From: an uncultured Prevotellaceae bacterium
GTDB lineage: Bacteria > Bacteroidota > Bacteroidia > Bacteroidales > Muribaculaceae
NCBI GenBank assembly: GCA_946409635.1
Contig: CAMJXD010000010.1
Coordinates: 1-47,724, forward strand
Direction of reading: 5' to 3'
DNA: 47,724 nucleotides
Shown here: positions 336 through 44,947 of the stretch, one piece after another
Layout of the letters: each line of letters begins with the position of its first letter
How positions within the stretch are numbered: position 1 is the first letter of the stretch
Translations under genes and position numbers: made by a program
The notes under the pieces: generated by a model
What the model was told of the DNA's origin: nothing
What the model saw: only the letters and a program-made list of their open reading frames with translations
The model's database searches: none

Positions 336-2057
336 TTACCAACCGGGGTTCTGGCCAATCTCGGGATTCAGGTTGCGCTGATCGTCGGGAATGGGGAACA
401 GGTTATACTTGGGATCCCACTGGCGGGGAGCACCGTTGTTGCGGCAGTTGATGTAACCATCGGCATCGATGTCGACGTCGCTGATCTTCACACCCTGGGC
501 ATCAAATCCGGCAACATATGCACCACGGCACAGGTCAGGATTCTTGTCGGTGTCGAGCAGCGAGAGCTGGTTCCAACGCAGCAGCGAGTAGTAACGGTCG
601 TTCATGCAGTACATCATCTCGACGCGGCGCTCACGGCGAACCTCCCAGATGATGTTGCTCACGCCCATGTTGTTGGCGGGATCAGCCTCGACAGCGGTGG
701 TCATGTGGGGCATGCCCACGCGGTCACGCAGCAGGTTGATCGACTTGTCCAGGTCGTTCTGGCTGATGTTACCCAGCTCGGCGCAAGCCTCGGCATAGTT
801 CAGCAGGATCTCGGCATACCAGAAGATGGGAGCGTCGGTCCAGTTACCATAGGTGCTCTGACGGTTGGTGTTGTCGATCAGGTTGGTATCGAACAGATAT
901 ACACCATAGCCCGTCGAAGCCGTGGACTGGGCACCGCCAAAGCGGGCATAACCGCAGCCGGGGAATTGCAGGATGTGGTCAACCTGGGCGCTCAGGCGCG
1001 GGTCGCGGTTGGCCAGCACGTTGCTGATGTCGATGTAGTGAGCCTCGCCCAGGCCCGAGTTGTCGTCGAGGACAACAACAGTACCGTGGTCACTCTTGTT
1101 CAGGCTGGTGGTAGCCAGGGGCTTACCATCCTTGAACAGGTAGCTGTCGAAGGCATCCTTGGTCATACCGTTCACCTGGGTAGAACCGCAGGTGTAGTCG
1201 ATAGTACCGTGAGCAAAGGTGCTCTGGATGTACTTCTTGTACATGATCATCTCGTTGTTACCGGCCAGGTCAAGCGAGTTGAAGTTAGCCTGGTAGTTGC
1301 TGTTGAGGCTGAAGTTGCCCGAGTTCATGATCTGCTCACAGGCGTTCTTGGCCTCGTTGAGGTAACGGTTGGCACGCTCGGTGTTCTTGGCCACATACTT
1401 GCTGTAGTCACCCTCATAGAGGCACACCTCGGCCTTCATGGCCAGAGCGACCCACTTGTTGAAAGCGGTGCGCGAGTTGGCATTGTCAGTGATGTTCTGG
1501 CAAGCGAAGTTCAGGTCCTCAAGCACCTTGTCCATCACGTCGTTGCGGGGCTGACGGGGACCATACAGAATCTCGGTGTCATTGGGGTCAAGCACCTTGT
1601 CCACCCAGTAGCAGTCGCCATAGGAGCGCACGAGCTTGTAGTGCTGCCATGCACGGTACAGGCGGCCGATACCCAGCCAGTTGTTCTTCTTGGCATCGCT
1701 CATCGAGGCAACGCCGGGAACAGCGGCAATCAGGGTGTTGGCACGGCGGATCTCAACATAGGGGGTGTTCCAGGCACCGGCGCTACCGGGCACATTCATG
1801 AACGTCCACTTGGTGATACCGGTCGAGGCCTGGTCGTCGTTCAGGGTGTTGAAGTAGTAGTCACCACTACCGCTACCATAACCGGCAAAGGTGTTGTAGA
1901 AGTAGTTGGCAAACAGCTGGACGTTGGTCTCGCTGGTGAAATAGTTGTCCTTGGTGAACTGATCGTAGGGCTCAGTGTCGAGAATATCGCTGCACGATGC
2001 GAACGACAGCATGACAACGCCCATACCAGCCAGTATAATTGATTTGAAAAGTTTCAT
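336..2057 (-). CDS. SusD/RagB-family outer-membrane lipoprotein (pair 1)
   Basis: This 573-residue protein has a lipoprotein signal (MKLFKSIILAG, then the lipobox LSFASC), so it should be lipidated at Cys22 and exported to the cell surface. The body has the usual SusD layout: an N-terminal helical part (SDILDTEPYDQFT, DNYFTSETNV), TPR-like helices in the middle, and the C-terminal SusD/RagB region with EILLNYAEACAELGN, EVRRERRVEMM and NLFPIPDDQRNLNPEIGQNPGW, all family hallmarks. SusD proteins form the lid over the SusC channel and capture ligand. It lies 102 nt downstream of its susC partner. Its first nine codons and the spacer before it are nearly identical to those of the pair-2 susD, while the rest of the protein belongs to a different subfamily. 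The ligand is unknown. Confidence 0.95.
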   Translation of the reverse strand: MKLFKSIILAGMGVVMLSFASCSDILDTEPYDQFTKDNYFTSETNVQLFANYFYNTFAGYGSGSGDYYFNTLNDDQASTGITKWTFMNVPGSAGAWNTPYVEIRRANTLIAAVPGVASMSDAKKNNWLGIGRLYRAWQHYKLVRSYGDCYWVDKVLDPNDTEILYGPRQPRNDVMDKVLEDLNFACQNITDNANSRTAFNKWVALAMKAEVCLYEGDYSKYVAKNTERANRYLNEAKNACEQIMNSGNFSLNSNYQANFNSLDLAGNNEMIMYKKYIQSTFAHGTIDYTCGSTQVNGMTKDAFDSYLFKDGKPLATTSLNKSDHGTVVVLDDNSGLGEAHYIDISNVLANRDPRLSAQVDHILQFPGCGYARFGGAQSTASTGYGVYLFDTNLIDNTNRQSTYGNWTDAPIFWYAEILLNYAEACAELGNISQNDLDKSINLLRDRVGMPHMTTAVEADPANNMGVSNIIWEVRRERRVEMMYCMNDRYYSLLRWNQLSLLDTDKNPDLCRGAYVAGFDAQGVKISDVDIDADGYINCRNNGAPRQWDPKYNLFPIPDDQRNLNPEIGQNPGW

Positions 2058-2480
2058 AATTATATCTGTTTTAGTTTTCAGTTCTCAGTTTTTCAGTTTT
2101 CAGTTGATTGCGGATGCCGCTGACAACTGACGACCGATAACTGACAACTTGATTGATAATTACTTCACGATAATCTCACAGATAGAAACACGGTTCCAGC
2201 TCAGTTCATCAAACATGTTGCTGATGCCCTGGCCCTGGGCGTTGATGCGCTTGGCATCGATACCATACTTCTTAACGAGCATATCCTTCACGCTGGCGGC
2301 ACGGCCGTTGGCGAGCTGGATGTTGTGGTCGGCAGGACCGTCCTTCGAGGCATAGCCATTGATGGTGCAGGTAGCCTCGGGATGGCTCTTCATGTAGGCG
2401 GCGATGCGCTCCACGTTGGGCTGCTGGTCGGCGCTCACGGCGGTCTTGTTCACGGGGAAGTGAACCAGGATGGTCATGTA
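2031..2480 (-). repeat. Inverted homology block, copy A (susC 3' end to susD start)
   Basis: This block covers the OmpA-coding 3' end of the left susC, the ~103-nt spacer and the first nine codons of the left susD. It matches 9800-10249 in inverted orientation. The last 38 nt up to position 2031 are identical, and around the susC stop I count about four differences in roughly 100 nt. The spacer itself is made of short repeats (GTTGTCAGTT and AACTGAAAACTGA types). Identity stops abruptly at codon 9/10 of susD. The inner boundary inside the OmpA coding region is gradual and only approximate. Confidence 0.85.
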
Positions 2481-5400
2481 CTGCAACGACTTGTCAATCA
2501 TGCCGCTCTTGCTCTTCTGGCAGTCGTTGAGGTCACGCTGCAGCTGGGCGTTGCGGTTGTTGGCAGCATTGAGCTGGTTCTGCAGTTCGGCGATGCGGGC
2601 GTTGGCTGCATTCTCGGCATCAGCCAGCTGAGCGCGCAGGTCGTTGATCTGGGCATTCAGGGCGCTGTTGTCAACGGGAGCAGCAACGGCACTGTGACCG
2701 CTGGCGCCGAAGGTCAGCTGCAGACCCACACTGTAGGTGCGCATGATGGGCTCGGTACGACCCCAAACGGCGTTGCCATAGCTACCCACACCATGGTTGA
2801 TCTCGGGATCGAGACCGGTACCGTTGCTGTGGTTGATGATGTCAAACAGGTTGTCGGTCGAAGCATAGATGCGCAGCTTCTCGATCAGGGCCTTGCGGGT
2901 GATGTGCTGCGGCAGCGTGTAACCCAGGGTGATGTTCTTCATGCGCAGGTAGCTCATGTTCACCAGATACTTGCTCTGGGGATAGAAGTTGAACTTACCC
3001 AGGTCAAGGATGTCGCTCGAGGCGGTACCACGGCCGGCACCACCACCCCACATGCGGGGGAAGTCGGCATTCTGGTCGATCTTGCCAGCGGCATAGTCGG
3101 CCTCGGTGATATAGCTGGTCTGGTTGTCATAGATAGCGTCGGCACCACGCATGAACGGCATCACGAATGCCGACTGCGTCCACATGTCGCGCTTGCCCAC
3201 ACCCTGCAGGTAGAAGTCAACGTCAAAGCCCTTCCAGGCAGCGCCCAGGCGCAGTGAGTACTGGTAGCGCGGGGTGAAGTTACCGATGCGCTTCAGGTCA
3301 CCGTGGTCCTCGGGAGTACCCTTACCCCAGTCAATCACGCCGTCATTGTTCAGGTCCTTGAACTTGATGTCACCAGGGCCGTAAACAAAGCCGTTGGACT
3401 CAAGCAACTTCTGGCTGGCAACACCCTGCTTGTAGGTGCCGTCGCTGTTGAAGTCGTTGAAGTCAAAGTAGCGGTCGGTCTCAAAGCCCCAGATCTCGCC
3501 ATACTCCTTGCCAGAGTAGTTGGTGTTGATCATGTTGTTGCTGTCCCACTTGGTGATCTTGGTCTTGTAGTCGCTCACGATAGCGGTAGCATAGAAATCA
3601 ACATTGCCAAAGCGGTTGCGGTAGTCAACCGAGACTTCCCAACCACGGGTGCGCATATCACCGGCGTTCTCCCAGGCAGCGCTTGCTCCGATAACCGAGG
3701 GCAGAGCCTTGCCAGGAGCCAGCATGTCCTTGTTCTCGCGCTGATACCAGTCGGCGGTAACGTTCAGGTGGCCGTTGAAGAAGGCCAGGTCAAGACCCAC
3801 GTTCAGGGTATGGATCTTCTCCCAGGTCAGAGACTCAGAAACCATCTTGGGAGCACCAAAGTAGTCATACTTCGAGTTGCCGGTACCAATCCAGTTCACA
3901 CCGTTGGTCACCTTGCCCATGGTCTCGAGGAACATGTACTGGCCCACCTCCTGGTTACCGATCATACCATAAGATGCACGGATCTTGGCATTGCTGATGG
4001 TGTTCTTGATAGGAGCCCAGAAGGCTTCCTCGCTGATGCGATAACCAATCGATGCCGAGGGGAAGAACGCCCACTGATCCTTCTTGGGGAACTTGCTCGA
4101 GCCGTCGTAGCGACCGTTCAACTCGATCAGGTAGATACCCTTGTAGTCATAGTTGATGCGGCCAAAGAAGCCTGCCGAGCCCCAGTGGTCGTGACGGTGG
4201 CTGTAGCTGTAGTCCTCGTTGGTCAGAGCCAGCTCAGGCATGTTCAGGTCCTGAAGGCCGTGACGCTCGTAGTACAGGTACTCATAGTCATACTTGTCCA
4301 CATTGGCACCCAACTTCAGGTTGAAGTTGTGGGCATCCTTGATCGACTTGTGGAAGTCGAAGTAGCCGTTGGCCACGTGGTTATGAGCTACGCTGCGGTC
4401 GGTCTCGATAAAGGTCGAGCCCGTGATGTCCACGGGACGCTGGGGATTCAGACCCCACGTGTTATACACAACCGAGGGAAGGCCGATGCCCTTGTAGCGA
4501 GTGTTGCGCTGGATAAAGGTGTAGTCGGCATTGAACGTCAGGCCACGGCCAAAGTCGATCTTGGCAAATGCGCCCAGGCTCATGTTGTTCATCTTATAGT
4601 AGCAGTCACCACCGGTGTTGCGGCCACCAATCATGGTGCGGGCGTCATACTTCTCACCGTCCTCGGGGTTCACAAAGTAGCCGTAGGGGCCGAAGAACGA
4701 ACCCCAGCGCCACAGGTACTGATAGGTACCGGCACCGCGCTTGTAGGGGGTCTCAAAGGTACGGTCCACATAGCTGATGCGAGTGCCCAGCTCCAACCAG
4801 TCGGTAGCGCGTACCGACACGTTAGAGGTAACGTTGTACTTGCGGAACTTGTCGGGGTTGAAGTTCATCAGCGACTTCTTCTGGTTGTAACCAACCGAGG
4901 TGTAGAAGTTGATGCGGCCCGAGTTGCCGGTTACACTCAGGTTATGGCTCTGCGAGGGAGCATGGTTGTTGAACATGATGCCGGGCACGTCCCAGTTGGC
5001 ATAGTAACCGTTCTCATCATAGTCGTCACCATAGATCATCTCACGATACTTGTCCTTGATGTCGCCATGCTTCTTGATCCAGTTGTTCATACCGTTCTGG
5101 AAAGCCTCACTGTCCAGGTACATACCGAAGAGCTCCGAGGCTACGCCCATGCGCTTGTTCACGTCGTTGAGCGCTGCCACCTGGGTGGGAACGTTGGGAT
5201 AGTCGGGCAGCGTGGTTGCCTGGCTCCAAGCGAAGTTGTTGTTGTAGCTCACCCTCACGTTGTCCTTGACGTGGGCAGTCTTGGTGGTGATCAGAACGAC
5301 ACCAAAGGCTGCACGCGTACCGTAGATCGAGGTCGAGGCAGCATCCTTCAGGACACTGATGTTCTCGATATCGGCGGGGTTGAGGTCGCCCAGAGACTCA

Positions 5401-5996
5401 ACGGGCACACCGTCAACGATGTACAACGGGTTGGAAATACCACTGTTGGACAGCGTACCGATGCCGCGGATCACGATCGAGGGATCGGCACTGATGTCAC
5501 CATTGGAATTCAAGATCGTCAAGCCGGGAACAGTTCCCTGCAGTGACTTACGGACGTCGGTCTCAGACTTGGAACCGAGCACCTTGTCAACGTCCACGGT
5601 GCTCACGGCGCCGGTCAGGTTGGCCTTGCGCTGTGTACCGTAACCAACGACTACGACCTCATCGAGCTTGGCGTTGTCCTCGGCCAGGACCACGCGCATG
5701 CCATTGGTGGCACGCAGCTCCTGAGTCTTGTAGCCGATAAACGAAATCTGAAGCTTAGCGTTGGGGCTAGCCTTGAACGAGAAGTTACCGTCCACATCGG
5801 TCGATGTGCCACGGGTCGTTCCTACCTCGACAATGCTGGCGCCGATGACGGGTTCTCCCTGCTCATCGACAACGCGGCCTGTCACAATGCCGGTGGCGGC
5901 ATTGGCCGTCACCTGGGGCGCAGGTGTAGCTTGTGCCTGGTAACCAGTACCGCACAGCATCATCAATGCGCCCAAAAGAGCTAAATGTCTTTTCAT
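2160..5996 (-). CDS. SusC/RagA-family TonB-dependent transporter fused to coiled coil and OmpA domain (pair 1)
   Basis: The protein has 1278 residues, counted from ATG at 5996; an in-frame GTG six bases upstream is less likely. The order is: signal peptide (1-23), CarboxypepD-regulatory-like domain (TGRVVDEQGEPVIGASI, about 36-113), TonB box DEVVVVGYG, plug domain with NPLYIVDGVPV and the SusC signature DIENISVLKDAASTSIYG, and a 22-stranded barrel ending YSVGLQLTFG near residue 1097. The family normally stops there. This one continues with a hydrophilic linker, a heptad-rich coil (NAQINDLRAQLADAEN onward, about 1110-1160) and an OmpA-like domain (about 1167-1278; NGYASKDG, NIQLANGRAASV, SWNRVSICEIIV). 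Since the last barrel strand ends on the periplasmic side, the extension should be periplasmic and able to bind peptidoglycan. It heads the operon with susD 102 nt downstream. The cargo is unknown. Confidence 0.95.
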   Translation of the reverse strand: MKRHLALLGALMMLCGTGYQAQATPAPQVTANAATGIVTGRVVDEQGEPVIGASIVEVGTTRGTSTDVDGNFSFKASPNAKLQISFIGYKTQELRATNGMRVVLAEDNAKLDEVVVVGYGTQRKANLTGAVSTVDVDKVLGSKSETDVRKSLQGTVPGLTILNSNGDISADPSIVIRGIGTLSNSGISNPLYIVDGVPVESLGDLNPADIENISVLKDAASTSIYGTRAAFGVVLITTKTAHVKDNVRVSYNNNFAWSQATTLPDYPNVPTQVAALNDVNKRMGVASELFGMYLDSEAFQNGMNNWIKKHGDIKDKYREMIYGDDYDENGYYANWDVPGIMFNNHAPSQSHNLSVTGNSGRINFYTSVGYNQKKSLMNFNPDKFRKYNVTSNVSVRATDWLELGTRISYVDRTFETPYKRGAGTYQYLWRWGSFFGPYGYFVNPEDGEKYDARTMIGGRNTGGDCYYKMNNMSLGAFAKIDFGRGLTFNADYTFIQRNTRYKGIGLPSVVYNTWGLNPQRPVDITGSTFIETDRSVAHNHVANGYFDFHKSIKDAHNFNLKLGANVDKYDYEYLYYERHGLQDLNMPELALTNEDYSYSHRHDHWGSAGFFGRINYDYKGIYLIELNGRYDGSSKFPKKDQWAFFPSASIGYRISEEAFWAPIKNTISNAKIRASYGMIGNQEVGQYMFLETMGKVTNGVNWIGTGNSKYDYFGAPKMVSESLTWEKIHTLNVGLDLAFFNGHLNVTADWYQRENKDMLAPGKALPSVIGASAAWENAGDMRTRGWEVSVDYRNRFGNVDFYATAIVSDYKTKITKWDSNNMINTNYSGKEYGEIWGFETDRYFDFNDFNSDGTYKQGVASQKLLESNGFVYGPGDIKFKDLNNDGVIDWGKGTPEDHGDLKRIGNFTPRYQYSLRLGAAWKGFDVDFYLQGVGKRDMWTQSAFVMPFMRGADAIYDNQTSYITEADYAAGKIDQNADFPRMWGGGAGRGTASSDILDLGKFNFYPQSKYLVNMSYLRMKNITLGYTLPQHITRKALIEKLRIYASTDNLFDIINHSNGTGLDPEINHGVGSYGNAVWGRTEPIMRTYSVGLQLTFGASGHSAVAAPVDNSALNAQINDLRAQLADAENAANARIAELQNQLNAANNRNAQLQRDLNDCQKSKSGMIDKSLQYMTILVHFPVNKTAVSADQQPNVERIAAYMKSHPEATCTINGYASKDGPADHNIQLANGRAASVKDMLVKKYGIDAKRINAQGQGISNMFDELSWNRVSICEIIVK

Positions 5997-6417: not shown

Positions 6418-9400
6418 ATGAAAAAACAATTAGCACTGCTCTGCACACTGGCGATAGCCATGGGTGTCCCTGCTGGACTGGCCCCGAGTCAGTCGAGCAC
6501 GGGATTTACGGCTGTTGCCCAGAGCAACCGAGTATCGGGCGTCGTCAAGGACGCCAACGGAGAGCCGATGATTGGCGTTAATGTGAGGGTAAAGGGCACT
6601 AATACGGGAACGACCACCGACATCGATGGCCGCTACTCGATTAAAGCCGACCCCAACCAGACGCTCTTGTTCTCCTTTGTGGGCTACGATGCGATGGAAG
6701 TTCCTGCATCTCAAGCCGGCAACGTAGTGATGGCCGAAGGCGCCAACACCCTGCAGGATGTAGTGGTGACGGCCGAGTTCGGTATGAAACGTGTAGCCCG
6801 CACGGTGGGTTCTTCGGTTCAGAACGTCAAGGCCCAGGACATCGTTGAGTCGGGCCGCACCGACTTTATCTCGGCCCTGCAAGGCCGTGTGTCGGGTATG
6901 AGTGTCGTTAGTTCGGGCGGTGCCCCGGGTGCTTCGACGACTGTCGTGCTGCGCAGCGCCACGTCGCTGAGCGGTAACAACCAGCCGCTGTATGTCATCG
7001 ACGGTATCCCCATGAACAACACCTCGTTCAACCCCACTACGGGTCTGGCTGCCGCCGATGGTGGTATCACTGGCCTGACGCCCCGCACAACTGACTACTC
7101 ATCGCGTGGTAACGACTTCAACCCCGAGGACATCGAGTCGATGACCGTCCTCAAGGGTGCCGCCGCCGCAGCTCTGTACGGTAGTGACGCATCTAACGGT
7201 GCCATCATCATCACCACCAAGAAAGGTCGCTCTGGCCGCGCTCGCGTGACTTACAGCAATCAGTTGACTTGGTCCAAGGCCTACGGCTGGCCCGAGATCC
7301 AGGACAAGTACATCAATGGTGCCTATGGTGCTGCCAACTTCTACTTCACGAGCCGCTACGGTTCGTTGTATGACCACTCACTGCCGTTCTATGACAACAC
7401 GGCTGCCGTGCTGCAGACTGGTTTCATGCACCGCCACAACCTGTCGATGGAGGCTGGTAACGACAAGATGTCGATTCGCGCCAGTGCATCGTTCTTTGAC
7501 CAGGACGGTGTCATCAAGACCACGGGTCTGACACGTACCAACCTGTCGCTGGCCGGACGCGCCGAGCTGACCAAGTGGTTAGCTATGGAAGGTAGCATGC
7601 AGTATGTCAACGCCAAGAACGACAAGGCCCTGCGTGGTACCAGTGGTCCTGTGCGTGCCAGCTACCGTTGGCCCAGCGTCGACGACATGAGCCAGTATCT
7701 GGCCGAGGACGGTGCCCACATGAAGTATCCTGCTTACTACACCGATACCGACCTCTTGAACCCGCTGTTCGGTTTGAACAAGAACCTGATGCACGATGAG
7801 ACCGACCGCATCATCAGCGCCTTCTCGTTGAACTTCACCCCCATCACTCACACCTACTTGCGCTTGCAGATGGGTTGGGACGTGAGCACCTCGACCTATG
7901 AGAACGGTGTTCACCCCTACTACACAACAAACGCTAACCAGAGCGTGGATGACAGCAACAACAGCGGTTCCTACCATATTACCAAGTATAACACCAACGA
8001 TCCCACGCTCAACGTGCTCGCTGGCTATAACAACAACTGGATGGACAACAAGTACTCGCTGGGCGTGCAGGTGGGTTACCATCAGCTTGAGAACGGCGTG
8101 ACCAGCTTGTCATCCTATGGTTACAACTTCAAGGTGATTGACTTCTACAGCATCAACAACTGTACCGAGAGCACCGTGACCAGCAAGAAGCGTTCCACCA
8201 AGCGCCGCGTGCAGGCTATCTCGGGTCAGTTGGAGCTGGGTTATAACAACATGATCTTCTTGACCGGCCGCTTCCGTAATGACTGGTCATCGACCCTGCC
8301 CAAGGACAACAACCACTACTTCTATCCCGCAGGTGAGCTTTCAATCGTGCTGAGCGAGATGAAGTTCATGAAGAACGTCGGCTTCATCAATTACCTGAAA
8401 CTGCGTGGCGCTGTCGCCCAGGTAGGTAAGGATGCTCCCGTGCTCTCGATTGATCCCGAGCTCGAACCCACTGGCCTGAGTGGTGGTGGTTACAAGTATG
8501 GCTACACTGGTCCTAACCGCAACCTCAAGCCCGAGATGACCACCTCCTATGAGGCTGGTGTTGAGGCCCGCTTCTGGAACGACCGCATCAATGCCGACTT
8601 CACCTGGTTCCGCACCCATTGCGCCGACCAGATTGTGACCGGCTTCCGCATGAGTTACGCTACCGGATTTGTGCTCAACAACATGAACGTGGGTACGTTT
8701 AACACCTGGGGCTGGGAAGGCCATGCCGACGTTGACGTAGTCCGCACCAAGGACATCCGCTGGAACATCGGCGTGAACGTGTCGCACACCAACAGTGAGG
8801 TCGTTTACCTGCCCGAAAACCTCAAGGAATTCTATAACGCTTACTCCTGGAACTCGGGTGGCATCCGCAACGGTGTGATGAAGGGTCATCCCATCAGCAC
8901 CGTGACCGGTCAGGCCTATGAGCGCAACGAGGCTGGCCAGATCCTGATCAACCCCACCACGGGTCTGCCCCGCGTTTCTAGCGACTGGAGCATCCTGGGT
9001 AACCGTGAGCCCAAGCTGCGCTTCGGTATCACCACCGCCCTGAGCGTGAAGAACTGGCGCCTGAGTGCTATGTTCCAGGGCCGTTACCATGCCGACGTTG
9101 TCAATGGTACCATGCGTGACATGTTGAGCACCGGTCTGAACTGGCTCTCGGTTGACATGCGCGAGAAGGGCTTCGTCGTGTTTGACGGCGTGCTCTATGA
9201 CGGCAAGCAGAATACCGACAATCCCACCAAGAACACCATCGCTGTCAACCTGGGCGAGTATGGTCAGTACACCTACACTGGTGGAGATGAGGACTGGATC
9301 CAGCACAAGATCAACTACATCCGCTGCCAGGAGCTGCGCCTTGCTTACATCATCCCGCACAACTGGTTGAGCAATGTGACCCGTGGCACCATCCAGAATG

Positions 9401-10119
9401 CCAGCATCTATGCTTCGGCCAATGACCTGTTCACCATCACCAACTACACGGGTACCGACGTTGCCGGTAACACGATGTCGGCTGCTGCTGGCGGTACTGG
9501 TGGTGAAGGTTATGACATGTGGTCACTGCCCACCCCGCGCAGCTACTCGGTAGGTCTGAGCGTTACCTTCGGTTCCAATGAAGATGCTCCCAAGCCCGCC
9601 TATGTGAACACCACGGCTCTCAACGACCAGATCAATGACCTGCGTGCACAGCTCGCTAACGCCGAGAATGGCTACAACAGCCGCCTGGCTCAGCTACAGG
9701 GCGACCTTGACAACGCTAACCGCGCTCTGGCCAACTGCCGCAACGACCTCAACGCTGCCAAGAATGCTACCCCCAAGGTTGTTGACAACAGCAAGCAGTA
9801 CATGAACGTCCTTGTTCACTTCCCCGTGAACAAGACCGCCGTCGGCACCGACCAGCGTCCCAACGTGGAGCGTGTCGCCGCTTATCTCAAGAGCCATCCC
9901 GAGGCTACCTGCACCATCAAGGGTTATGCCTCGCCCGAGGGCAATCAGGAGAACAACATCAAGCTCGCTAACGGCCGTGCCGCCAGCGTGAAGGATATGC
10001 TCATCAACAAGTATGGTATCGCAGCTAACCGCATCAATGCCGAGGGCCAGGGTATCAGCAACATGTTTGATGAACTGAGCTGGAACCGTGTTTCGATCTG
10101 TGAAATCATCGTGAAGTAA
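6418..10119 (+). CDS. SusC/RagA-family TonB-dependent transporter fused to coiled coil and OmpA domain (pair 2)
   Basis: This 1233-residue protein starts at the ATG preceding KKQLALLCTLAIAM, a clear signal peptide; an upstream in-frame extension from 6211 is AT-rich leader and is excluded. Domains: CarboxypepD-regulatory-like (VSGVVKDANGEPMIGVNV, about 38-110), a diverged TonB box (LQDVVVTAEFG instead of DEVVVVGYG), plug (NNQPLYVIDGIPM, DIESMTVLKGAAAAALYG), and a barrel ending YSVGLSVTFG near residue 1052. A coiled coil (DQINDLRAQLANAEN to about 1121) and an OmpA-like domain (about 1122-1233; KGYASPEGN, NIKLANGRAASV) follow. The barrel belongs to a different branch from pair 1, yet the C-terminal ~170 residues are close to both other SusC proteins here. 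It is divergent to pair 1 and followed by its susD after 103 nt. The cargo is unknown. Confidence 0.95.
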   Translation: MKKQLALLCTLAIAMGVPAGLAPSQSSTGFTAVAQSNRVSGVVKDANGEPMIGVNVRVKGTNTGTTTDIDGRYSIKADPNQTLLFSFVGYDAMEVPASQAGNVVMAEGANTLQDVVVTAEFGMKRVARTVGSSVQNVKAQDIVESGRTDFISALQGRVSGMSVVSSGGAPGASTTVVLRSATSLSGNNQPLYVIDGIPMNNTSFNPTTGLAAADGGITGLTPRTTDYSSRGNDFNPEDIESMTVLKGAAAAALYGSDASNGAIIITTKKGRSGRARVTYSNQLTWSKAYGWPEIQDKYINGAYGAANFYFTSRYGSLYDHSLPFYDNTAAVLQTGFMHRHNLSMEAGNDKMSIRASASFFDQDGVIKTTGLTRTNLSLAGRAELTKWLAMEGSMQYVNAKNDKALRGTSGPVRASYRWPSVDDMSQYLAEDGAHMKYPAYYTDTDLLNPLFGLNKNLMHDETDRIISAFSLNFTPITHTYLRLQMGWDVSTSTYENGVHPYYTTNANQSVDDSNNSGSYHITKYNTNDPTLNVLAGYNNNWMDNKYSLGVQVGYHQLENGVTSLSSYGYNFKVIDFYSINNCTESTVTSKKRSTKRRVQAISGQLELGYNNMIFLTGRFRNDWSSTLPKDNNHYFYPAGELSIVLSEMKFMKNVGFINYLKLRGAVAQVGKDAPVLSIDPELEPTGLSGGGYKYGYTGPNRNLKPEMTTSYEAGVEARFWNDRINADFTWFRTHCADQIVTGFRMSYATGFVLNNMNVGTFNTWGWEGHADVDVVRTKDIRWNIGVNVSHTNSEVVYLPENLKEFYNAYSWNSGGIRNGVMKGHPISTVTGQAYERNEAGQILINPTTGLPRVSSDWSILGNREPKLRFGITTALSVKNWRLSAMFQGRYHADVVNGTMRDMLSTGLNWLSVDMREKGFVVFDGVLYDGKQNTDNPTKNTIAVNLGEYGQYTYTGGDEDWIQHKINYIRCQELRLAYIIPHNWLSNVTRGTIQNASIYASANDLFTITNYTGTDVAGNTMSAAAGGTGGEGYDMWSLPTPRSYSVGLSVTFGSNEDAPKPAYVNTTALNDQINDLRAQLANAENGYNSRLAQLQGDLDNANRALANCRNDLNAAKNATPKVVDNSKQYMNVLVHFPVNKTAVGTDQRPNVERVAAYLKSHPEATCTIKGYASPEGNQENNIKLANGRAASVKDMLINKYGIAANRINAEGQGISNMFDELSWNRVSICEIIVK

Positions 10120-10249
10120 TTATCAATCAAGTTGTCAGTTATCAGTCGTCAGTTGTCAGCGCAATCACCGCAATCAACTGAAAACTGAAAACTGAGAACT
10201 GAAAACAAAAACAGATATAATTATGAAACTTTTCAAATCAATTATACTG
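9800..10249 (+). repeat. Inverted homology block, copy B (susC 3' end to susD start)
   Basis: This is the partner of the block at 2031-2480 in opposite orientation, about 7.3 kb away. It includes the OmpA-coding end, the spacer 10120-10222 with repeated GTTGTCAGTT/AACTGAAAAC-type units, and the first nine codons of susD (MKLFKSIIL, identical at DNA level). Beyond 10249 the two susD genes are unrelated at nucleotide level. The left boundary is approximate. Confidence 0.85.
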
Positions 10250-12106
10250 TGTGCGCTGGCTTGTGTGACCTTGGGCCTGACATCCTGTGACGACTACCTG
10301 GATGTGAACAAGAACACGGACGCGCCCGATCATGTGGAGGGTTACCTCTATCTGGCTGGTATTCAGCAGGCCTATCAGGGCATCTACTGGGACCTGCGCG
10401 CCATCGCGCCGCTCACCCAGATGATGGGTACATCAAGCTATACTTCATTTGCCAACCACTACTACTCAAAGGGCAGTGATGCCGGTGGTGAAGCATGGCG
10501 CATGGTTTACTGGAACCAGGGCATGAACCTGGAGAACATGATCAACCAGAGTGTTGAGGCCGAGAACTGGACGCTTGCCGGTATCGGCTTGGCTATGAAG
10601 GCTTTCTCTTGGGACCTCTTGACCAAGGTCAATGGTGAGGCTCCCATGAAACAGGCCTATGTGTCTGGTCTGCTCTCTCATGAGTATGACTACCAGAGCG
10701 ACATCTATACTCAGGTGCGCGAGTGGGCTTATCAGGCTATCGAGTACCTCCAGAGGGAGGACAACTCAGCCTATGGCAACCGCATCAAGAACAACGACTT
10801 CATGTACGGTGGCGACAAGGACAAGTGGATCAAGTTCTGCTATGCCGTGATTGCACGCAACCTGGTCTCGTTGACCAACAAGAAGGACTTCAAGGAGAAA
10901 TACTACAACGAGTTCATCACCGCGGTGAACAATGCCTTCGCCAGCAACGATGACAACGCTACCTTGAAGATCTTGGGTGGCGGTGCCGACGCAGCCGAGA
11001 GTGGCTACAACAACTTCTGGGGTACCTATCGTGGCAACCTGAGTTACAGCTACTTCCAGCATGACTATGCTGTGCAGCTGTTCACGGGTACCATCCGCAA
11101 GTATGACGAGCAGGGCAACTATATCCAGACCGAGGATACCCTGCCCTTGAACAAGCAGCACTATCCCTACCAGCTGCTCGACAAGCAGATCACCAGCGAC
11201 ACCCTGCCCGATGCAGGTCACTTCGACCCGCGCCGCCTCGTCAAGCTGGCCACCACCGACAGCAGCAACTATGCTACCATCGCCGACCGCGAGGTGCTCC
11301 GCAGCCTCTACTATGTGGGCTCGGGATTCACCGGTGCCACCGGCCCCATCGCCACGGCGCCCTCGTTCTGGGGCCGCAATGCGGTGTCCAACACCACCTA
11401 TGACGGCTCGGGTCACTGGATCTATCGTGACGATGCTCCCTACATCATGGCCACCTATGCCGAGCTGCTGTTCGACCTGGCCGAGGTACAGTACAAGTTT
11501 GGCAGCAAGAGCGACGCCTTTGAGACCTGGAAGAAGGCCATGCAGGCCGATATGGACTTTACCGCCAGCTACATCGTGCCCGGAACCTTGAACGGCAACT
11601 ACCGTCAGGGCGACCGCGTGACCAAGGCCACCTTCAACACGCTGGCCCAGGAATACCTCAACGGTCCCTATGTGGCAGGCCTGTCACTGAACGACTTCTC
11701 GCTGTCACACATCATGATGCAGAAGTATCTGGCCCTGTTCCCCTGGGGCGGTATTGAGACTTGGGTTGACTTGCGCAAGAACTTCTATGACATCCAGTAC
11801 ACCGGCGAGTATCCCAAGTACCTCAATGGCTGGGACAAGACGACCATTGATCAGAAACGCGATGAGGATCCCACCAAGGTCTATAAGGGATTCTATCTGC
11901 AGCCTGCTCAGGTTCAGGGTCGCAAGAGTGCCTTCAACGAGGATAACAACGGTTCACCTTGCTTCCGCCTGCGTCCGCGCTACAACTCCGAGTACATGTG
12001 GAACCTGAATAACCTGCAGGCACTCAAGCCTATCCCTGGTGACGCTCTTGATTATCAGTGCTCCATCATGTGGTTCTGCTATCCTGGTGATATGCCTACC
12101 GAATGA
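10223..12106 (+). CDS. SusD-like outer-membrane lipoprotein, SusD_2/RagB subfamily (pair 2)
   Basis: The 627-residue protein opens with a lipoprotein signal MKLFKSIILCALACVTLG and lipobox LTSC, followed by DDYLDVNKNTDAP, the usual start of the SusD_2 (PF12771-type) branch. APLTQMMGTSSYTSFANHYY, the central helices and the C-terminal IMMQKYLALFPWGGIETWVDLRK fit that branch, which is distinct from the SusD proteins of pairs 1 and 3. The predicted role is a surface lid and ligand-binding partner of the upstream SusC-OmpA protein. The next lipoprotein gene starts 32 nt after its stop codon, so the three genes likely form one operon. The ligand cannot be inferred. Confidence 0.92.
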   Translation: MKLFKSIILCALACVTLGLTSCDDYLDVNKNTDAPDHVEGYLYLAGIQQAYQGIYWDLRAIAPLTQMMGTSSYTSFANHYYSKGSDAGGEAWRMVYWNQGMNLENMINQSVEAENWTLAGIGLAMKAFSWDLLTKVNGEAPMKQAYVSGLLSHEYDYQSDIYTQVREWAYQAIEYLQREDNSAYGNRIKNNDFMYGGDKDKWIKFCYAVIARNLVSLTNKKDFKEKYYNEFITAVNNAFASNDDNATLKILGGGADAAESGYNNFWGTYRGNLSYSYFQHDYAVQLFTGTIRKYDEQGNYIQTEDTLPLNKQHYPYQLLDKQITSDTLPDAGHFDPRRLVKLATTDSSNYATIADREVLRSLYYVGSGFTGATGPIATAPSFWGRNAVSNTTYDGSGHWIYRDDAPYIMATYAELLFDLAEVQYKFGSKSDAFETWKKAMQADMDFTASYIVPGTLNGNYRQGDRVTKATFNTLAQEYLNGPYVAGLSLNDFSLSHIMMQKYLALFPWGGIETWVDLRKNFYDIQYTGEYPKYLNGWDKTTIDQKRDEDPTKVYKGFYLQPAQVQGRKSAFNEDNNGSPCFRLRPRYNSEYMWNLNNLQALKPIPGDALDYQCSIMWFCYPGDMPTE

Positions 12107-14528: not shown

Positions 14529-15500
14529 TTACTCCTTCTTGTTGCCGCCGTCGGTGCCAAACAGCTCCTTGATGCCGCCGATCGAACCAAGCAGGTTGGT
14601 GGCCTCATAGGGCAGATAGACCGTCTTGGTCTTGTCGCCGCTGGCTACGGTATCGAGCATCTGGATGTACTTCTGGGCAAGCAGGTAGTTGGCGGGATTG
14701 GTGCTCTGCCCTACTGCCTGGGTAATCTTGTCGATGGCGATAGCCTCGGCCTCGGCCTTGCGGATGCGGGCCTGGGCTTCACCCTCGGCACGCAGGATCT
14801 CGGTCTGCTTGTCGGCCTCGGCCTGATTGATGCGTGCAGTCTTCTGACCCTCGGACTGGAGGATGGCTGCCTGCTTCTGTCCCTCGCTGGTGAGGATGGT
14901 GGCTCGCTTGTTGCGCTCGGCCTGCATCTGCTTCTCCATAGCCTGCAATACCGTTTGAGGGGGCTGGATGTCCTGCAGCTCCACGCGGTTGACCTTGATG
15001 CCCCACTTGTTGGTGGCATCGTCGAGCACGGCACGCAGCTTGTTGTTGATGGTGTCGCGCGAGGTGAGCGTCTGGTCAAGCTCCAGTTCACCGATGATAT
15101 TACGCAGCGTGGTCTGGGTGAGCTTCTCGATAGCGTTGGGCAGGTTGTTGATCTCATACACTGCCTTGAAGGGGTCCATGATCTGGAAGTAGAGCAGTGC
15201 GTTGATCTGCGTCATGACGTTATCCTTGGTGATGACGTTCTGCTTGTCAAAGTCATAAACCTGCTCTCTCAGGTCGATGACCGATGTGGTGCGGTAGCGA
15301 CCGTGCTCATAGGCCACAATGCTCTTGGCGCGGTCGATAAAGGGGATAATCACGTTGATGCCAGGCTTGAGTGTGGCATAGTACTTACCCAGGCGCTCAA
15401 TAATCTTGGTCTCGCTCTGTGGAATGATCACGAGGCTGTTCTTGACCAAAATCAGCGCCAGCAGAATAATGACGATGAGAAAAATTGTTAGTACGTTCAT
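14529..15500 (-). CDS. SPFH/Band 7 (stomatin/QmcA-like) membrane protein
   Basis: The 323-residue protein has one N-terminal membrane segment (about 3-20, LTIFLIVIILLALILV) and an SPFH domain from about 25 to 190 (IIPQSETKIIERLGKY, INVIIPFIDR, ITKDNVMTQINALLYFQI). A long alanine/glutamate-rich coiled coil (about 200-265, repeated EGQKQAAILQSEGQ-type units) and a short C-terminal tail follow. Length and layout match QmcA/stomatin-type proteins, which form ring-shaped membrane microdomain assemblies. The partner NfeD gene lies 53 nt upstream on the same strand, the standard pairing for this family. Its physiological role here is unknown. Confidence 0.92.
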   Translation of the reverse strand: MNVLTIFLIVIILLALILVKNSLVIIPQSETKIIERLGKYYATLKPGINVIIPFIDRAKSIVAYEHGRYRTTSVIDLREQVYDFDKQNVITKDNVMTQINALLYFQIMDPFKAVYEINNLPNAIEKLTQTTLRNIIGELELDQTLTSRDTINNKLRAVLDDATNKWGIKVNRVELQDIQPPQTVLQAMEKQMQAERNKRATILTSEGQKQAAILQSEGQKTARINQAEADKQTEILRAEGEAQARIRKAEAEAIAIDKITQAVGQSTNPANYLLAQKYIQMLDTVASGDKTKTVYLPYEATNLLGSIGGIKELFGTDGGNKKE

Positions 15501-15553
15501 ATCGGTTCAGTTTTGTTATGAGTTGATGATGTAATTTCACTAGTTGATGCATC

Positions 15554-29827: not shown

Positions 29828-31351
29828 TTACTTCTTGTCACCAATAGGATTCTGATCGGTGTCAGGATTCATGTTGACGTTGCCGTCAAACTCGGCCTGA
29901 GGAATCGTCAGTACCCATGCATAGGCAGCAGGATCCTTCAGTGCCTCGGCATGGGTGGGAACCAGCAGACCATCGGGCCAGCCATATTCACTCAGGCGCT
30001 CAAATCCCTGGTGCAAGCGGCGGATGGTATAGATACGTCCATCCTCGCCCCAAAGCTCGAGACGACGCTGGATCAGGATCTCCTCACGCAGCGAGCCAGT
30101 CTCTTCGGTAGTGAGCTTGCCAAGGGCAGTACCAGTCTTGTTGGTGTTGTAGCCAGGATCACGCTGGCTCATCAGGGCCATCAGGTATTCCTTGGCCAGA
30201 GATTCGTTGCCTGCCATACATGCAGCCTCGGCAGCGTTGAGATACATCTCCTCGACGCGCATCCAGATGTAGTCACCCTCCCAGGTCTGAGAGTTAGAGA
30301 AGTCAAACTTCTGCTGAACGTAGTCCTGATCGGGATCCCACCATGCACGACGGGTATCGGTACTCTTCATCTTGCCATAGAGCCAAGAGGAAATCTCCTT
30401 GGGAGCAGTCTGACCATAAGCCATGTAATTCTGCATGTGAGCAAAGAACGAGGCATACATACCAGCCTGGTCGGCCACAATCTGTGCACCCCACATCACG
30501 TTACCGGCATTAACATCGTTGGTACCCTTAAACGAGCTGATGGGCAGAATGCTCTTGCCACTGGCGGCGATAGCCTTCTGAGCAGCATCCAGGGCGTCGG
30601 ACCACTTCTCCTCGACCAGGGCGATGCGGGACTTCAGACCCAGAGCCACGGCATAGCTCATGTGGCTGGGATGACGCTGAGCAGGGCTCTTGGCCAGCAG
30701 TTCAACGGCCTTGTTGATGTCGTTGTCAATCTGCTCATAAACCTTAGCAACGGTCTCGCGGGGCTGACCGGTCGTCGTCGTCATCGTGGGACCATTATAG
30801 ATGGGCACACAAGGATCGTTAGGATAGGTGTAGTTGCGGGCAAAAATCTGTGACAGCATGAAGTAGCTGTAGGCACGGATAGCATAGGCCTGACCAATCA
30901 CGTAGCTGACGTCCTCGGTAGAGCCTTGCATGGTCTCCTCGGCAGCGATGATGTAGTTGGCATTGGCAATCCAGGTGTAATAGGCCATCCACAGGTCATA
31001 GCTGCGCCATGAGCTGCTGGTGTAACGGCTCTTTACATTGTAGGCAGCGTCAAACCAGAACCAGCCGCTGCCCTGGTCACCCATGATCAAGTCATCACCC
31101 ATCACCTCGGCCATCAGGTTATAGGCACTGATACCGAAGCACTGGTGCGTGTTACCAGTGGTAGACCAGCCGGCAGTGTACATCGAGCGGTAGATACCGT
31201 TCAGGGGGATGAGCGCCTTGGTGGCGTCGCTCATGAAGGTCGAACCCGACATTGAATCGGTAGGCTCGGTCTCGAGCAACTCGCTGTTGCACGACGAGAG
31301 GCTGAGCACGCCAAACATCCCTATAAACAAATATTTAAATATCTTTTTCAT
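29828..31351 (-). CDS. SusD/RagB-family outer-membrane lipoprotein (pair 3)
   Basis: The 507-residue protein has a lipoprotein signal (MKKIFKYLFIGMFGVLSLSSC), the conserved ELLETEPTDSMSGSTF start, TPR-like helices (YVIGQAYAIRAYSYFMLSQI, a family hallmark) and the C-terminal SusD signature WMRVEEMYLNAAEAACMAGN with EILIQRRLELWGEDGR and TIPQAEFDGN near the end. It should form the extracellular lid of the upstream SusC-OmpA protein, 53 nt away. Unlike pairs 1 and 2, neither the spacer nor the signal peptide shares the homology block. Confidence 0.95.
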   Translation of the reverse strand: MKKIFKYLFIGMFGVLSLSSCNSELLETEPTDSMSGSTFMSDATKALIPLNGIYRSMYTAGWSTTGNTHQCFGISAYNLMAEVMGDDLIMGDQGSGWFWFDAAYNVKSRYTSSSWRSYDLWMAYYTWIANANYIIAAEETMQGSTEDVSYVIGQAYAIRAYSYFMLSQIFARNYTYPNDPCVPIYNGPTMTTTTGQPRETVAKVYEQIDNDINKAVELLAKSPAQRHPSHMSYAVALGLKSRIALVEEKWSDALDAAQKAIAASGKSILPISSFKGTNDVNAGNVMWGAQIVADQAGMYASFFAHMQNYMAYGQTAPKEISSWLYGKMKSTDTRRAWWDPDQDYVQQKFDFSNSQTWEGDYIWMRVEEMYLNAAEAACMAGNESLAKEYLMALMSQRDPGYNTNKTGTALGKLTTEETGSLREEILIQRRLELWGEDGRIYTIRRLHQGFERLSEYGWPDGLLVPTHAEALKDPAAYAWVLTIPQAEFDGNVNMNPDTDQNPIGDKK

Positions 31352-31404: not shown

Positions 31405-34400
31405 TTACTTAACAATGATTTCGCAAATCGAAACACGGTTCCAGCTCAATTCGTCAAACATGTTGCCGATACCCTGGCCAGCGGCGTTGATGCGGTTGGC
31501 AGCGATACCATACTTCTTGACGAGCATATCCTTCACGCTGGCGGCACGGCCGTTAGCGAGCTTGACGTTCACGTCCTCCTTGCCCTCGGGCGAAGCATAA
31601 CCCTTGATGACGCAGGTAGCCTCGGGATGGCTCTTGAGGTAAGCAGCCACGCGCTCAACGTTGGCACGCTGGTCGGCGGTAACGGCGGTACCACTCTTGG
31701 GGAAGTGAACCAGGATGTTCATGTACTGCTTGCTGTTGTCTACCACCTTGGGAGCGGCATTCTTGGCAGCATTCAGGTCGTTGCGGCAGTTGGCCAGGGC
31801 GCGGTTAGCGGCGTCGAGGTCACCCTGCAGCTGAGCCAGACGGCTGTTAGCGTCGGCAGCGGCGTTATGGGCGTCGGCGAGCTGAGCGCGCAGGTCGTTG
31901 ATCTGGCCGTTCAGTGCATTCACGTTAACGGCGGGAGCGGCGGCAGCGTAGCTCTTACCGAAGTTCAGCTCGATACCTACGGTGTAGGTGCGGTTGGGGC
32001 TGTAGTCATAGTTGGTACCACCCGAGAAGTTGTACTGGGGATCCATACCATTGAGGTGTGTCCACAGGGCCAGGTTGTCGACCGAACCAAAGATGCGGGC
32101 ACCGGTCATACCCAGCTTGCCAATCCAGCTCATGGGCAGAGCATAGGCCAGGGTAATGTTCTTGATAGCAAAGTAGCTGGCATCGATCAGGTAGCGGTCG
32201 GTGTTGAGCATCGAGCCTGCGATGGTAGCACGGGGAACGTCGGTGATGTCACCGGGCTTCTGCCAGCGGCGCAGCATGTTCTTGTTCCAGGTTGAGCTGA
32301 TGTACCACAGGTCCATGTCGCTGGCATACAGGCTGTCATAAACCTTGCCACCCAGCGAGTAGGTAGTCAGCACGCTCAGGGTCAGACCCTTCCAGGTGAA
32401 GTCGGTACCCAGCGAACCGAACAGGTCGGGCTGGCGGCTACCCAGATAGTACTTGCAGTTGGTAGCAATCGAGGAGTTGTCGGTGATATAGTCAGTACCC
32501 TCAATCTTGTTACCTTCCTTGTCCTTCTCATAGGCCCAGTACAGGGGATAACCGGTCGAGGGGTCAACACCTGCGCTCTTGTTCATATAATAGGTATAGA
32601 TGGGCTTGCCCTCCTCAATCACGCGAACGCCATAGGTCAAAACAGGAGCCTCCTTGGTCAACTTGATGACCTTGTTCTTGTTGTGGGTGGCCATTGCAGT
32701 GATGTTCCACTCAAAGTCGGCAGTGCGGACGGGAGTGATGCGCAGCGATGCCTCAACACCGCGGTTGCGCATGTCACCGATGTTGTCCATGTAACCGGTG
32801 AAACCGGTCGACAGTGCCATGGGACGCTCAAGGAGCAGGTCCTTGGTCAGACGGTTGTAGAAGTCGACGTTCAACTGCAAGCGGTGGTTGAACAGGATAG
32901 CGTCGAAGCCGGCATTGAAGTTACGGCTCTTCTCCCAAGATACGGTCTGGTTCTCGAGCGAAGAAATGAGTGCACCGATGTTGGTGGCATTGCTGTAGCT
33001 CAAGTCGTAGAGCGACTGCCAAGCATAGTAAGTCGAGAGCATATCGTTACCCTGCTCACCATAGCTGGCCTTTACAGACAGGTTGTTGACCCAACCCACA
33101 TTCTGCATGAACTTCTCACCCGAGATACGCCAGTTGGCACCGACGCTCCAGAAGGTACCCTTGTTGTGGTCGGGGTGGAAGCGCGAAGACTTATCCTGAC
33201 GCAGCGAAGCGCTCAGGAAGTAGCGGCCACCGTAGTTGTAGCTTGCACGACCCAGCCAGGAGTCGATGCGATACTTGTCGCTGTAGGAGTCGGCCTCGAG
33301 CAGGGTGGTTGCGGGACGCAACTCAAGGATGCCGTCAACCAGGTTGGTCTTGCCGGCCAGCAGGTAGCTGTACTCATAGGCATACCACTCGTGACCAGCC
33401 AACAGACCGATGGTGTGCTCACCGAAGGTGCGGTCCCAGGTCAACAACTGGTTGAAGGTATAGCTCTGGATGCGACGGTTGTACTTCTCAAGCAGACCAC
33501 CGGCGTTAGCCTGGTTACCGTGCTGAGAGTTCATGTAACGGGTGTTGTTGATCGTCTGATAGTCGGTGCTGAAGTTGACAGCCAGCTTGATGCCCTGACG
33601 CCAGCCATACTTGGCCAGGTCGCTACCCAGCACGATACCGGTGCGCAGACCGGCAACGTCACGCTTGGCATAAGCCTTATCCAGCATCAGCATACCCAGC
33701 GACGAGAAGTCGCTCAGCGAACCGGGACGGGTGCCATTGGCAGTAGGCTCACCCCAGTCATACAGGATGTTGCCGTCACCGTCATACATCGTCTTACCAT
33801 CGATGTCCTTGAGGTAAACAGGGAACAGCGGGTTGATGAACTGTGCGGTGTACCAGGGGTTAGACGTGCTGGTATCCTCATAGTCGTTGAAGTTCTGCAT
33901 AGCGTGGGCCAACGAAACGTTGATGTTGGCACCCAACCAGTCAGTGATCTGGCTGGTGACGTTGGCACGGCCAGTGTAGCGCTCATAGTTGGTGGTCTTC
34001 AAGATACCATCCTCGTTGAGGTAACCCAGCGACATCATGTACTGAGCATGCTCGCTACCGCCGGTCACCTGCAACTGGTGCTCGTGACGGAAGGCATTGT
34101 TGCGGATTACGCTGTCATACCAGTCCTCGTTCCAGGCACTCTGTGCATCGGCGCGCACTTGACCGGTTACCGGGTCAATGATCTCACCCCAAGTGTAGTT
34201 CTTGAAGGGGTTGTACTGCTCACCACCGAGCTGGCCGCTCAGACCAGCGCGGGCGATGGCCTCGGCATCATTCCAGCTGTTGCCGTTGTCAATAGCCTGG
34301 TTGCGCAATGACTCATACACGAGCTGTACAAATTCCTTCTGATCCACGTGGTCGTAGCGCTTGGTAGCACGCGAAGACCAGCCGAAGGTCGAACGCCACA

Positions 34401-35100
34401 TGATGTTGCTGCGGCCCTCAACACCCTTCTTGGTAGTGATCATCACAACACCGTTGGCACCACGGGCACCATACAGAGCCGAAGCACTTGCGTCCTTGAG
34501 GACGGTCATCGACTCGATATCCGACGGGTTGATTGTGCTGAGCGTACCGTCAAAGGGGGCACCGTCGACAACATACAGCGGCTGGCTCGATGCGTTGATC
34601 GAACCGTAACCACGAATTTGGATGCTGGGCGATGAACCAGGCTGACCAGAAGCGGCAGTTACCTGCAGACCAGCTACGTTACCCTCGAGGGCCTTGGTAG
34701 CGTCGGTCACAGGACGCAACTCCAGTTTCTTGTTGGATACAGCCTCGGCCGAACCGGTGTAGGAAGTCTTCTTGGCAGTACCATAGGCAACAACCATCAC
34801 CTCGTCCAGAGCCGTGCCATCGTCGGTCAAGGTGATGGACATGTTAGGCTGGATAGGAAGTTCCTGGGTCTTATAACCCACATACGAAACTTTGAGGGTC
34901 TTCACATTGTAAGGAAGATTGAGCGAGAACTCACCGTTAACGTCGGTGGCCGCGCCGTTTCCTCCGCCAATGGGCTGGATCGTTGCACCAATCAGCGGCT
35001 CGCCGTTGGCGTCAACTACCTGTCCCCTCACTACTTGTTGGGCACTCATGCCCAGTGAGATAGCACAGATGGCTATCAGCAGCAGAAATAGCTTCTTCAT
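31405..35100 (-). CDS. SusC/RagA-family TonB-dependent transporter fused to coiled coil and OmpA domain (pair 3)
   Basis: The 1231-residue protein has a signal peptide (MKKLFLLLIAICAISLGMSAQ), a CarboxypepD-regulatory-like domain (VVRGQVVDANGEPLIGATI), TonB box DEVMVVAYG, plug (SSQPLYVVDGAPF, DIESMTVLKDASASALYGARG) and a full barrel ending TYTVGIELNFG. The usual end is followed by an alanine-rich coiled coil (NGQINDLRAQLADAHN, SRLAQLQGDLDAANRALANC; about 1061-1119) and an OmpA-like domain (about 1120-1231; KGYASPEGKED, NVKLANGRAASV, SWNRVSICEIIV). The coil and OmpA parts are almost identical in sequence to those of pair 2, 21 kb away, while the barrels are only distant relatives. It leads a three-gene operon with its own promoter. 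The cargo is unknown. Confidence 0.95.
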   Translation of the reverse strand: MKKLFLLLIAICAISLGMSAQQVVRGQVVDANGEPLIGATIQPIGGGNGAATDVNGEFSLNLPYNVKTLKVSYVGYKTQELPIQPNMSITLTDDGTALDEVMVVAYGTAKKTSYTGSAEAVSNKKLELRPVTDATKALEGNVAGLQVTAASGQPGSSPSIQIRGYGSINASSQPLYVVDGAPFDGTLSTINPSDIESMTVLKDASASALYGARGANGVVMITTKKGVEGRSNIMWRSTFGWSSRATKRYDHVDQKEFVQLVYESLRNQAIDNGNSWNDAEAIARAGLSGQLGGEQYNPFKNYTWGEIIDPVTGQVRADAQSAWNEDWYDSVIRNNAFRHEHQLQVTGGSEHAQYMMSLGYLNEDGILKTTNYERYTGRANVTSQITDWLGANINVSLAHAMQNFNDYEDTSTSNPWYTAQFINPLFPVYLKDIDGKTMYDGDGNILYDWGEPTANGTRPGSLSDFSSLGMLMLDKAYAKRDVAGLRTGIVLGSDLAKYGWRQGIKLAVNFSTDYQTINNTRYMNSQHGNQANAGGLLEKYNRRIQSYTFNQLLTWDRTFGEHTIGLLAGHEWYAYEYSYLLAGKTNLVDGILELRPATTLLEADSYSDKYRIDSWLGRASYNYGGRYFLSASLRQDKSSRFHPDHNKGTFWSVGANWRISGEKFMQNVGWVNNLSVKASYGEQGNDMLSTYYAWQSLYDLSYSNATNIGALISSLENQTVSWEKSRNFNAGFDAILFNHRLQLNVDFYNRLTKDLLLERPMALSTGFTGYMDNIGDMRNRGVEASLRITPVRTADFEWNITAMATHNKNKVIKLTKEAPVLTYGVRVIEEGKPIYTYYMNKSAGVDPSTGYPLYWAYEKDKEGNKIEGTDYITDNSSIATNCKYYLGSRQPDLFGSLGTDFTWKGLTLSVLTTYSLGGKVYDSLYASDMDLWYISSTWNKNMLRRWQKPGDITDVPRATIAGSMLNTDRYLIDASYFAIKNITLAYALPMSWIGKLGMTGARIFGSVDNLALWTHLNGMDPQYNFSGGTNYDYSPNRTYTVGIELNFGKSYAAAAPAVNVNALNGQINDLRAQLADAHNAAADANSRLAQLQGDLDAANRALANCRNDLNAAKNAAPKVVDNSKQYMNILVHFPKSGTAVTADQRANVERVAAYLKSHPEATCVIKGYASPEGKEDVNVKLANGRAASVKDMLVKKYGIAANRINAAGQGIGNMFDELSWNRVSICEIIVK

Positions 35101-44842: not shown

Positions 44843-44947
44843 CCACGTTTTTATTGCTTACCGTGACCTTGTAATGTTGAGGCCGGGGCATCGTTTTTTT
44901 TATTGAAGTTATCATTTAATCATTCAATATCATTAATTCAACAAAAG

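Follow-up and report, generated by a model that had tools for sequence, protein, structure and literature searches.

The 47,724-nucleotide window analyzed here (the whole of positions 1 to 47,724 of contig CAMJXD010000010.1, assembly GCA_946409635.1, from an uncultured Prevotellaceae bacterium) carries three SusC genes, SusC1 to SusC3 (S1 to S3), that continue behind the last barrel strand into a tail of linker, coil and OmpA-like domain. We consider it probable that this tail was captured once from the bacterium's own OmpA, was spread over at least four SusC paralogues by recombination and likely anchors the importers to the cell wall, through either peptidoglycan or wall-bound partners. A single capture of the C-terminal half of OmpA, later copied to at least four old paralogues (S1 to S3 here, S4 in relatives), is the history supported by the trees and by tail-less orthologues, and a wall tether appears the likeliest role of the tail.

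All three proteins score above the cut-off of 368 bits on TIGR04056, the full-length SusC/RagA model (823, 635 and 812 bits for S1, S2 and S3), and carry the TIGR04057 plug signature (57-68 bits, cut-off 46.2). The PF00593 barrel model matches two of them; S3 gives no match at 0.001, yet TIGR04056 spans its whole barrel. A SusD gene lies directly downstream of SusC in each locus, and by family membership S1 to S3 would be TonB-driven SusCD importers. Behind the barrel, the OmpA model PF00691 reaches 50, 45.5 and 45.5 bits (gathering cut-off 27.2). Heptad spacing is found in a stretch of 50-53 residues in each tail: under our own scoring 22, 3 and 0 of 5000 shuffled sequences were as good. These results bear out an earlier note, made from the letters of this DNA alone, which had described SusC proteins that end in a coil and an OmpA-like domain. 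The three frames it listed are indeed open and run in frame through the barrel end into coil and domain, though 2160-5996 and 31405-35100 are read on the minus strand and only 6418-10119 on the plus strand. Over the whole length, identity to S2 is 34% for S1 and 38% for S3; in the tail the values are 69% and 85%.

In an alignment of the ends the barrel-final F is kept in the fused proteins, and a Gly then begins the tail. A C-terminal tail behind the last strand of a SusC barrel would, given barrel topology, hang into the periplasm. The earlier note had proposed predicting the structure of one of the proteins. The AlphaFold2 model of the S2 tail (mean predicted local distance difference test, pLDDT, 88.6) consists of one 52-residue helix and an OmpA fold, and its best match among solved structures (Foldseek) is 3td3_A, the domain of A. 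baumannii Omp38 (E 7e-13, template modelling score 0.82 by target length, root mean square deviation 1.6). When barrel and tail of S2 are modelled together (pLDDT 73.4, predicted template modelling score 0.69), the final strand at residues 1041-1051 is followed by the helix and then by the OmpA fold; the best structural match, and the nearest solved chain to SusC2, is the SusC BT_2264.

The likely donor is found in the same genome (completeness 83.6%). Ten OmpA domains are present, and the closest of these to the tails belongs to a free OmpA of 418 amino acids on contig 6, the C-terminal half of which is 63% identical over tail residues 19-171. Both share the coil, the OmpA-like domain and the GYAS...R signature. 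They differ in what precedes the coil (about 257 residues in the free OmpA, presumably its own small barrel, against a SusC of about 1050-1100 residues before the tail), and by alignment the coil of the free OmpA is 11 residues shorter. Eleven SusC genes of the genome exceed the model cut-off. Three are tailed, and the seven others whose end could be read all finish at the barrel; this count leaves out L011, whose frame ends early and close to a contig end, and the fragment L030.

A tree of 79 tails, taken from 156 classified sequences by random sampling within each group, with named sequences added, places 52 of the 52 SusC tails in one clade with support 100/99 and with no free OmpA inside. 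This clade is joined (100/97) to 11 free OmpAs of the same species group, which are themselves grouped at 93/94. Two pairs of tails in the tree are identical and the same species may enter from two collections, so that numbers of sequences should not be read as numbers of species. Because all SusC tails form one clade, a single capture with later copying seems the appropriate reading. The low overall identity of the three proteins (34-38%) could speak for three separate OmpA-SusC fusions, which is how the earlier note had presented them ("three independent examples"). The single SusC-tail clade rules this out, and we give such a history almost no credence.

Tail-less orthologues of S1 to S4 all occur within the genus. 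They comprise L115, L116, L118, L125, L130 and L135 for S1 (68-70% identity), L182-L185 for S2 (69-73%), L194-L203 for S3 (64-69%) and L186 and L188 for S4. Every tail-less end read (L183 is not counted) is the last strand of the barrel with its final F (replaced by L in four of the S1 orthologues), at the very place where the fused proteins switch to the tail, and SusD comes next wherever it was read. S4 sits between S1 and S2 in several relatives. The adjacent pair S4 (minus strand) and S1 (plus strand) is seen without tails in L118, L130 and L135 and with tails in L102, L105 and L109. In the barrel tree, built from 65 rows with a quick method that uses no mixture model, and flagged for long branches, seven changes are needed between tailed and tail-less; together with the single tail clade this argues for one capture that was then copied. 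The tail-less S1 orthologues come from named genome records, two of which bear particular labels: one is named Candidatus Sodaliphilus limicaballi and another (L125) Caryophanon sp. The latter label is probably wrong, as Caryophanon is the name of a Firmicute. The genus studied here is probably Sodaliphilus or close to it.

Tails and barrels of different paralogues are also found combined. Two S4 barrels (L136 and L137) carry tails that fall inside the S1 tail clade (93/91), and an S1 barrel (L062, a partial frame) carries a tail grouped with those of S2 to S4 (97/97). These combinations are most simply explained by a transfer of tails between barrels of different paralogues. In a divergent S1 type (L119-L124 and similar) the barrel is about 50% identical to that of the window and the SusD of L124 44%, with a tail of S1 type at 86-92%; here the pair of barrel and SusD lid appears to have been replaced beside a constant tail.

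Traces of copying are visible in the DNA of the window. S1 and S2 share a tract of 649 bases at 81.7% identity that reaches 129 bases past the end of the S1 gene, spans the intergenic stretch and enters the start of SusD. A leader of 38 bases is identical at the starts of SusD1 and SusD2, and these are the only two sites in the assembled genome at three or fewer mismatches. In the relative L102 the S4 and S1 loci show the same MKLFKSIIL start; the SusD leaders read in tail-less orthologues are different from the shared one. The DNA shared by S2 and S3 ends at the stop codon. Gene conversion between SusCD operons would best explain the shared tract. Taking this one step further, the SusC-SusD junction (OmpA coil and domain, intergenic stretch and SusD leader) may form a transferable cassette, made once from the cell's own OmpA. 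Gene conversion would have carried it between operons of at least four importers, which would thereby become wall-anchored while the adjoining barrels and SusD lids are still exchanged. We lean towards this extension, by a small measure.

Fused frames are not restricted to this assembly. Among the matches listed, at the top of which the matches of tail strength stood, at least one fused SusC-OmpA frame is present in 38 of the 101 genomes of the genus (hand count, including frames cut by contig ends). The earlier note was therefore right that the continuous frame is no assembly fusion; an assembly artefact is ruled out by these genomes and by named records of metagenome-assembled genomes. The relatives named in this way are labelled Muribaculaceae, Prevotellaceae, Porphyromonadaceae or Bacteroidales, and several come from goat, sheep, water buffalo and roe deer stomachs according to their isolate names. 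The further suggestion that the tail could replace free OmpA does not hold, as free OmpA is kept in this genome and in 36 of the 38 tail-bearing genomes among the matches listed (four as short frames of 168-205 amino acids). A scan of 198 genomes of the family (matches at E up to 1e-30, present in 94) gave fused frames in five genomes, all of this genus. Across 393 genomes of the order, a profile of barrel end plus tail (best five candidates each, 25 genomes with a match at 1e-25) found no fused frame outside this genome, and with the tail alone (up to nine candidates each, 26 genomes with a match at 1e-14) all 32 rows outside this genome lie in frames of 379-431 amino acids. Most of the scanned genomes gave no match at all, so these scans would not have detected an independent fusion that involved a more distant OmpA.

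The copying between operons raises the question whether the tail does anything in SusC. It could be a neutral passenger of gene conversion, which would agree with the position of the tailed genes of the window on one contig, with the mismatch of tail and barrel type in L062, L136 and L137 and with the continuation of the S1/S2 shared DNA past the stop codon. Nevertheless, the tails are under purifying selection across species: median dN/dS (the ratio of nonsynonymous to synonymous substitution rates; medians over 7-8 sequences per gene) is 0.16-0.18 for tails, 0.13-0.19 for barrels and 0.11-0.16 for the OmpA domain. The presence of fused frames in the 38 genomes and an invariant binding-site Arg (see below) also speak against a tail without function, and we regard this explanation as improbable.

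D271 and R286 of A. baumannii OmpA are reported to be required for diaminopimelate binding (PMC6572160). The equivalent of R286 is present in all 109 SusC tails matched, some of which are the same gene from two collections. The main rival to anchoring is that the tail does not bind peptidoglycan and instead clusters transporters into arrays, its coil pairing with that of a free OmpA or of a second tailed SusC. Several features would suit clustering: the coil was acquired together with the domain, shows heptad spacing in S1, S2 and S3 alike and is modelled as one long helix, and the canonical Asp of the diaminopimelate site is missing. On the other hand, by median dN/dS the constraint is stronger on the OmpA domain than on the tail as a whole, and the last 18 residues are identical in all eight SusC tails aligned, neither of which would be required for a role of the coil only. 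The coil of free OmpA is also the shorter one, by 11 residues in the alignment. Clustering is therefore a possibility that we rate as unlikely, though less so than a neutral tail.

Several observations weigh against a wall anchor or against the history given for it. By text pattern the equivalent of D271 is Ser in 108 of the 109 SusC tails and Ala in one, and the Asp is kept in all six other OmpA domains of the genome (L001, L002, L003, L008, L009 and L010, that is, outside the free OmpA and the three SusC). Peptidoglycan binding is somewhat weakened as an explanation by this Ser, even though the Arg is kept. The bootstrap of the tail tree is not fully settled (0.984). Tail-less loci also differ in their arrangement: in L115, S4 lies downstream of S1 on the same strand rather than divergent, and L116 shows no S4. 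Finally, copying could have spread the tail without any benefit. With respect to the Ser, the same residue occurs in the donor OmpA (L004) and in 45 of 47 free OmpAs matched, and in 108 of the 109 SusC tails an acidic residue follows two positions later. The missing Asp thus does not single out the SusC tails, nor have these decayed from their donor.

Anchoring by the tail, the reading that we prefer, would work as follows. The C-terminal half of the cell's own OmpA gene (coil and domain) would have been fused once behind the last strand of a SusC, in a clade of Muribaculaceae type from gut and rumen, after which recombination between SusCD operons would have distributed this tail to four or more SusC paralogues. 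The SusC C-terminus would thus bear in the periplasm a linker, a long helix, perhaps able to associate with further helices, and an OmpA-like domain, and would attach the importer non-covalently to peptidoglycan or to wall-bound partners. Such an anchor may brace the barrel while TonB pulls, and may also retain importers on the cell and out of shed vesicles. In E. coli, truncated OmpA is reported to be packaged into vesicles more than full OmpA (PMC8284480); retention of tailed SusC on the cell is therefore a concrete prediction.

Each of the parts has known counterparts. With SusC/RagA porins (TIGR04056; BT_2264 of B. thetaiotaomicron, PDB 5fq6/5fq7) the three proteins share plug, barrel, an N-terminal CarbopepD_reg_2 domain and an adjoining SusD, and they differ by about 180 extra residues past the barrel, where the seven other readable SusC of the genome end. 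The fold and the diaminopimelate-site Arg are shared with peptidoglycan-binding OmpA-like domains (A. baumannii Omp38, PDB 3td3-3td5; OprF, 5u1h; Pal), from which the SusC tails differ in the site Asp, replaced by Ser with an acidic residue two positions further. Another Bacteroidota envelope protein with a terminal OmpA-like domain is PorE of the type IX secretion system; it is, however, not a TonB-dependent transporter, and S2 reaches only 24.6 of 600 bits on NF052230. Among the papers listed in searches of the open-licence literature, none describes a SusC-OmpA protein, judged by titles and the starts of abstracts. We regard SusC plus OmpA as a new combination of known parts, neither it nor its spread being described in the literature searched. 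Positions of all features are given in Table 1.

Table 1. Tailed SusC genes of the window, their parts and the adjoining SusD genes.
Feature	Position	Strand	Description
SusC1 (S1)	2160..5996	-	1278 aa (amino acids), SusC/RagA TonB-linked porin with OmpA tail
S1 tail	2163..2708	-	all residues past the barrel's final F1096: linker, coil, OmpA-like domain
S1 coil	2511..2663	-	51 residues, 1112-1162; heptad test
S1 OmpA-like domain	2217..2459	-	PF00691, residues 1180-1260
SusD1	336..2057	-	PF07980/PF14322, 573 aa
Shared SusD leader, SusD1 copy	2031..2068	-	38 bases, identical to 10212-10249
SusC2 (S2)	6418..10119	+	1233 aa, SusC/RagA with OmpA tail
S2 tail	9571..10116	+	after F1051
S2 coil	9616..9765	+	50 residues, 1067-1116; heptad test, helix in models
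S2 OmpA-like domain	9820..10062	+	residues 1135-1215; Pfam and fold model
Shared SusD leader, SusD2 copy	10212..10249	+	identical to 2031-2068
SusD2	10223..12106	+	PF12771, 627 aa
SusC3 (S3)	31405..35100	-	1231 aa, SusC/RagA with OmpA tail
S3 tail	31408..31959	-	after F1047
S3 coil	31759..31917	-	53 residues, 1062-1114; heptad test
S3 OmpA-like domain	31468..31704	-	residues 1133-1211
SusD3	29828..31351	-	PF14322/PF07980, 507 aa

By Pfam, the 26 neighbouring open reading frames scanned include no glycoside hydrolase or lyase and two glycosyltransferase-like proteins. Elsewhere in the window two adjoining Peptidase_M6 proteins (41806-44640 and 44903-46720, plus strand) each end in a type I dockerin domain. 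A GH3-family protein of the auxin-conjugase-like kind, here in a gut bacterium, is encoded at 25210-26727 (plus strand). The SPFH/Band_7 and NfeD pair at 14529-16006 (minus strand) is ordinary.

In gut Bacteroidota, SusCD importers are the dominant route of nutrient uptake. To our knowledge it is not settled how barrels pulled by TonB keep their position, and how they are kept on the cell and not lost to vesicles. Related species that have the same importer loci, some with a possible wall anchor and some lacking it, amount to a natural experiment, and these natural pairs of tailed and tail-less importers therefore make the role of anchoring directly testable. In addition, one domain can here be seen spreading across paralogous operons inside genomes.

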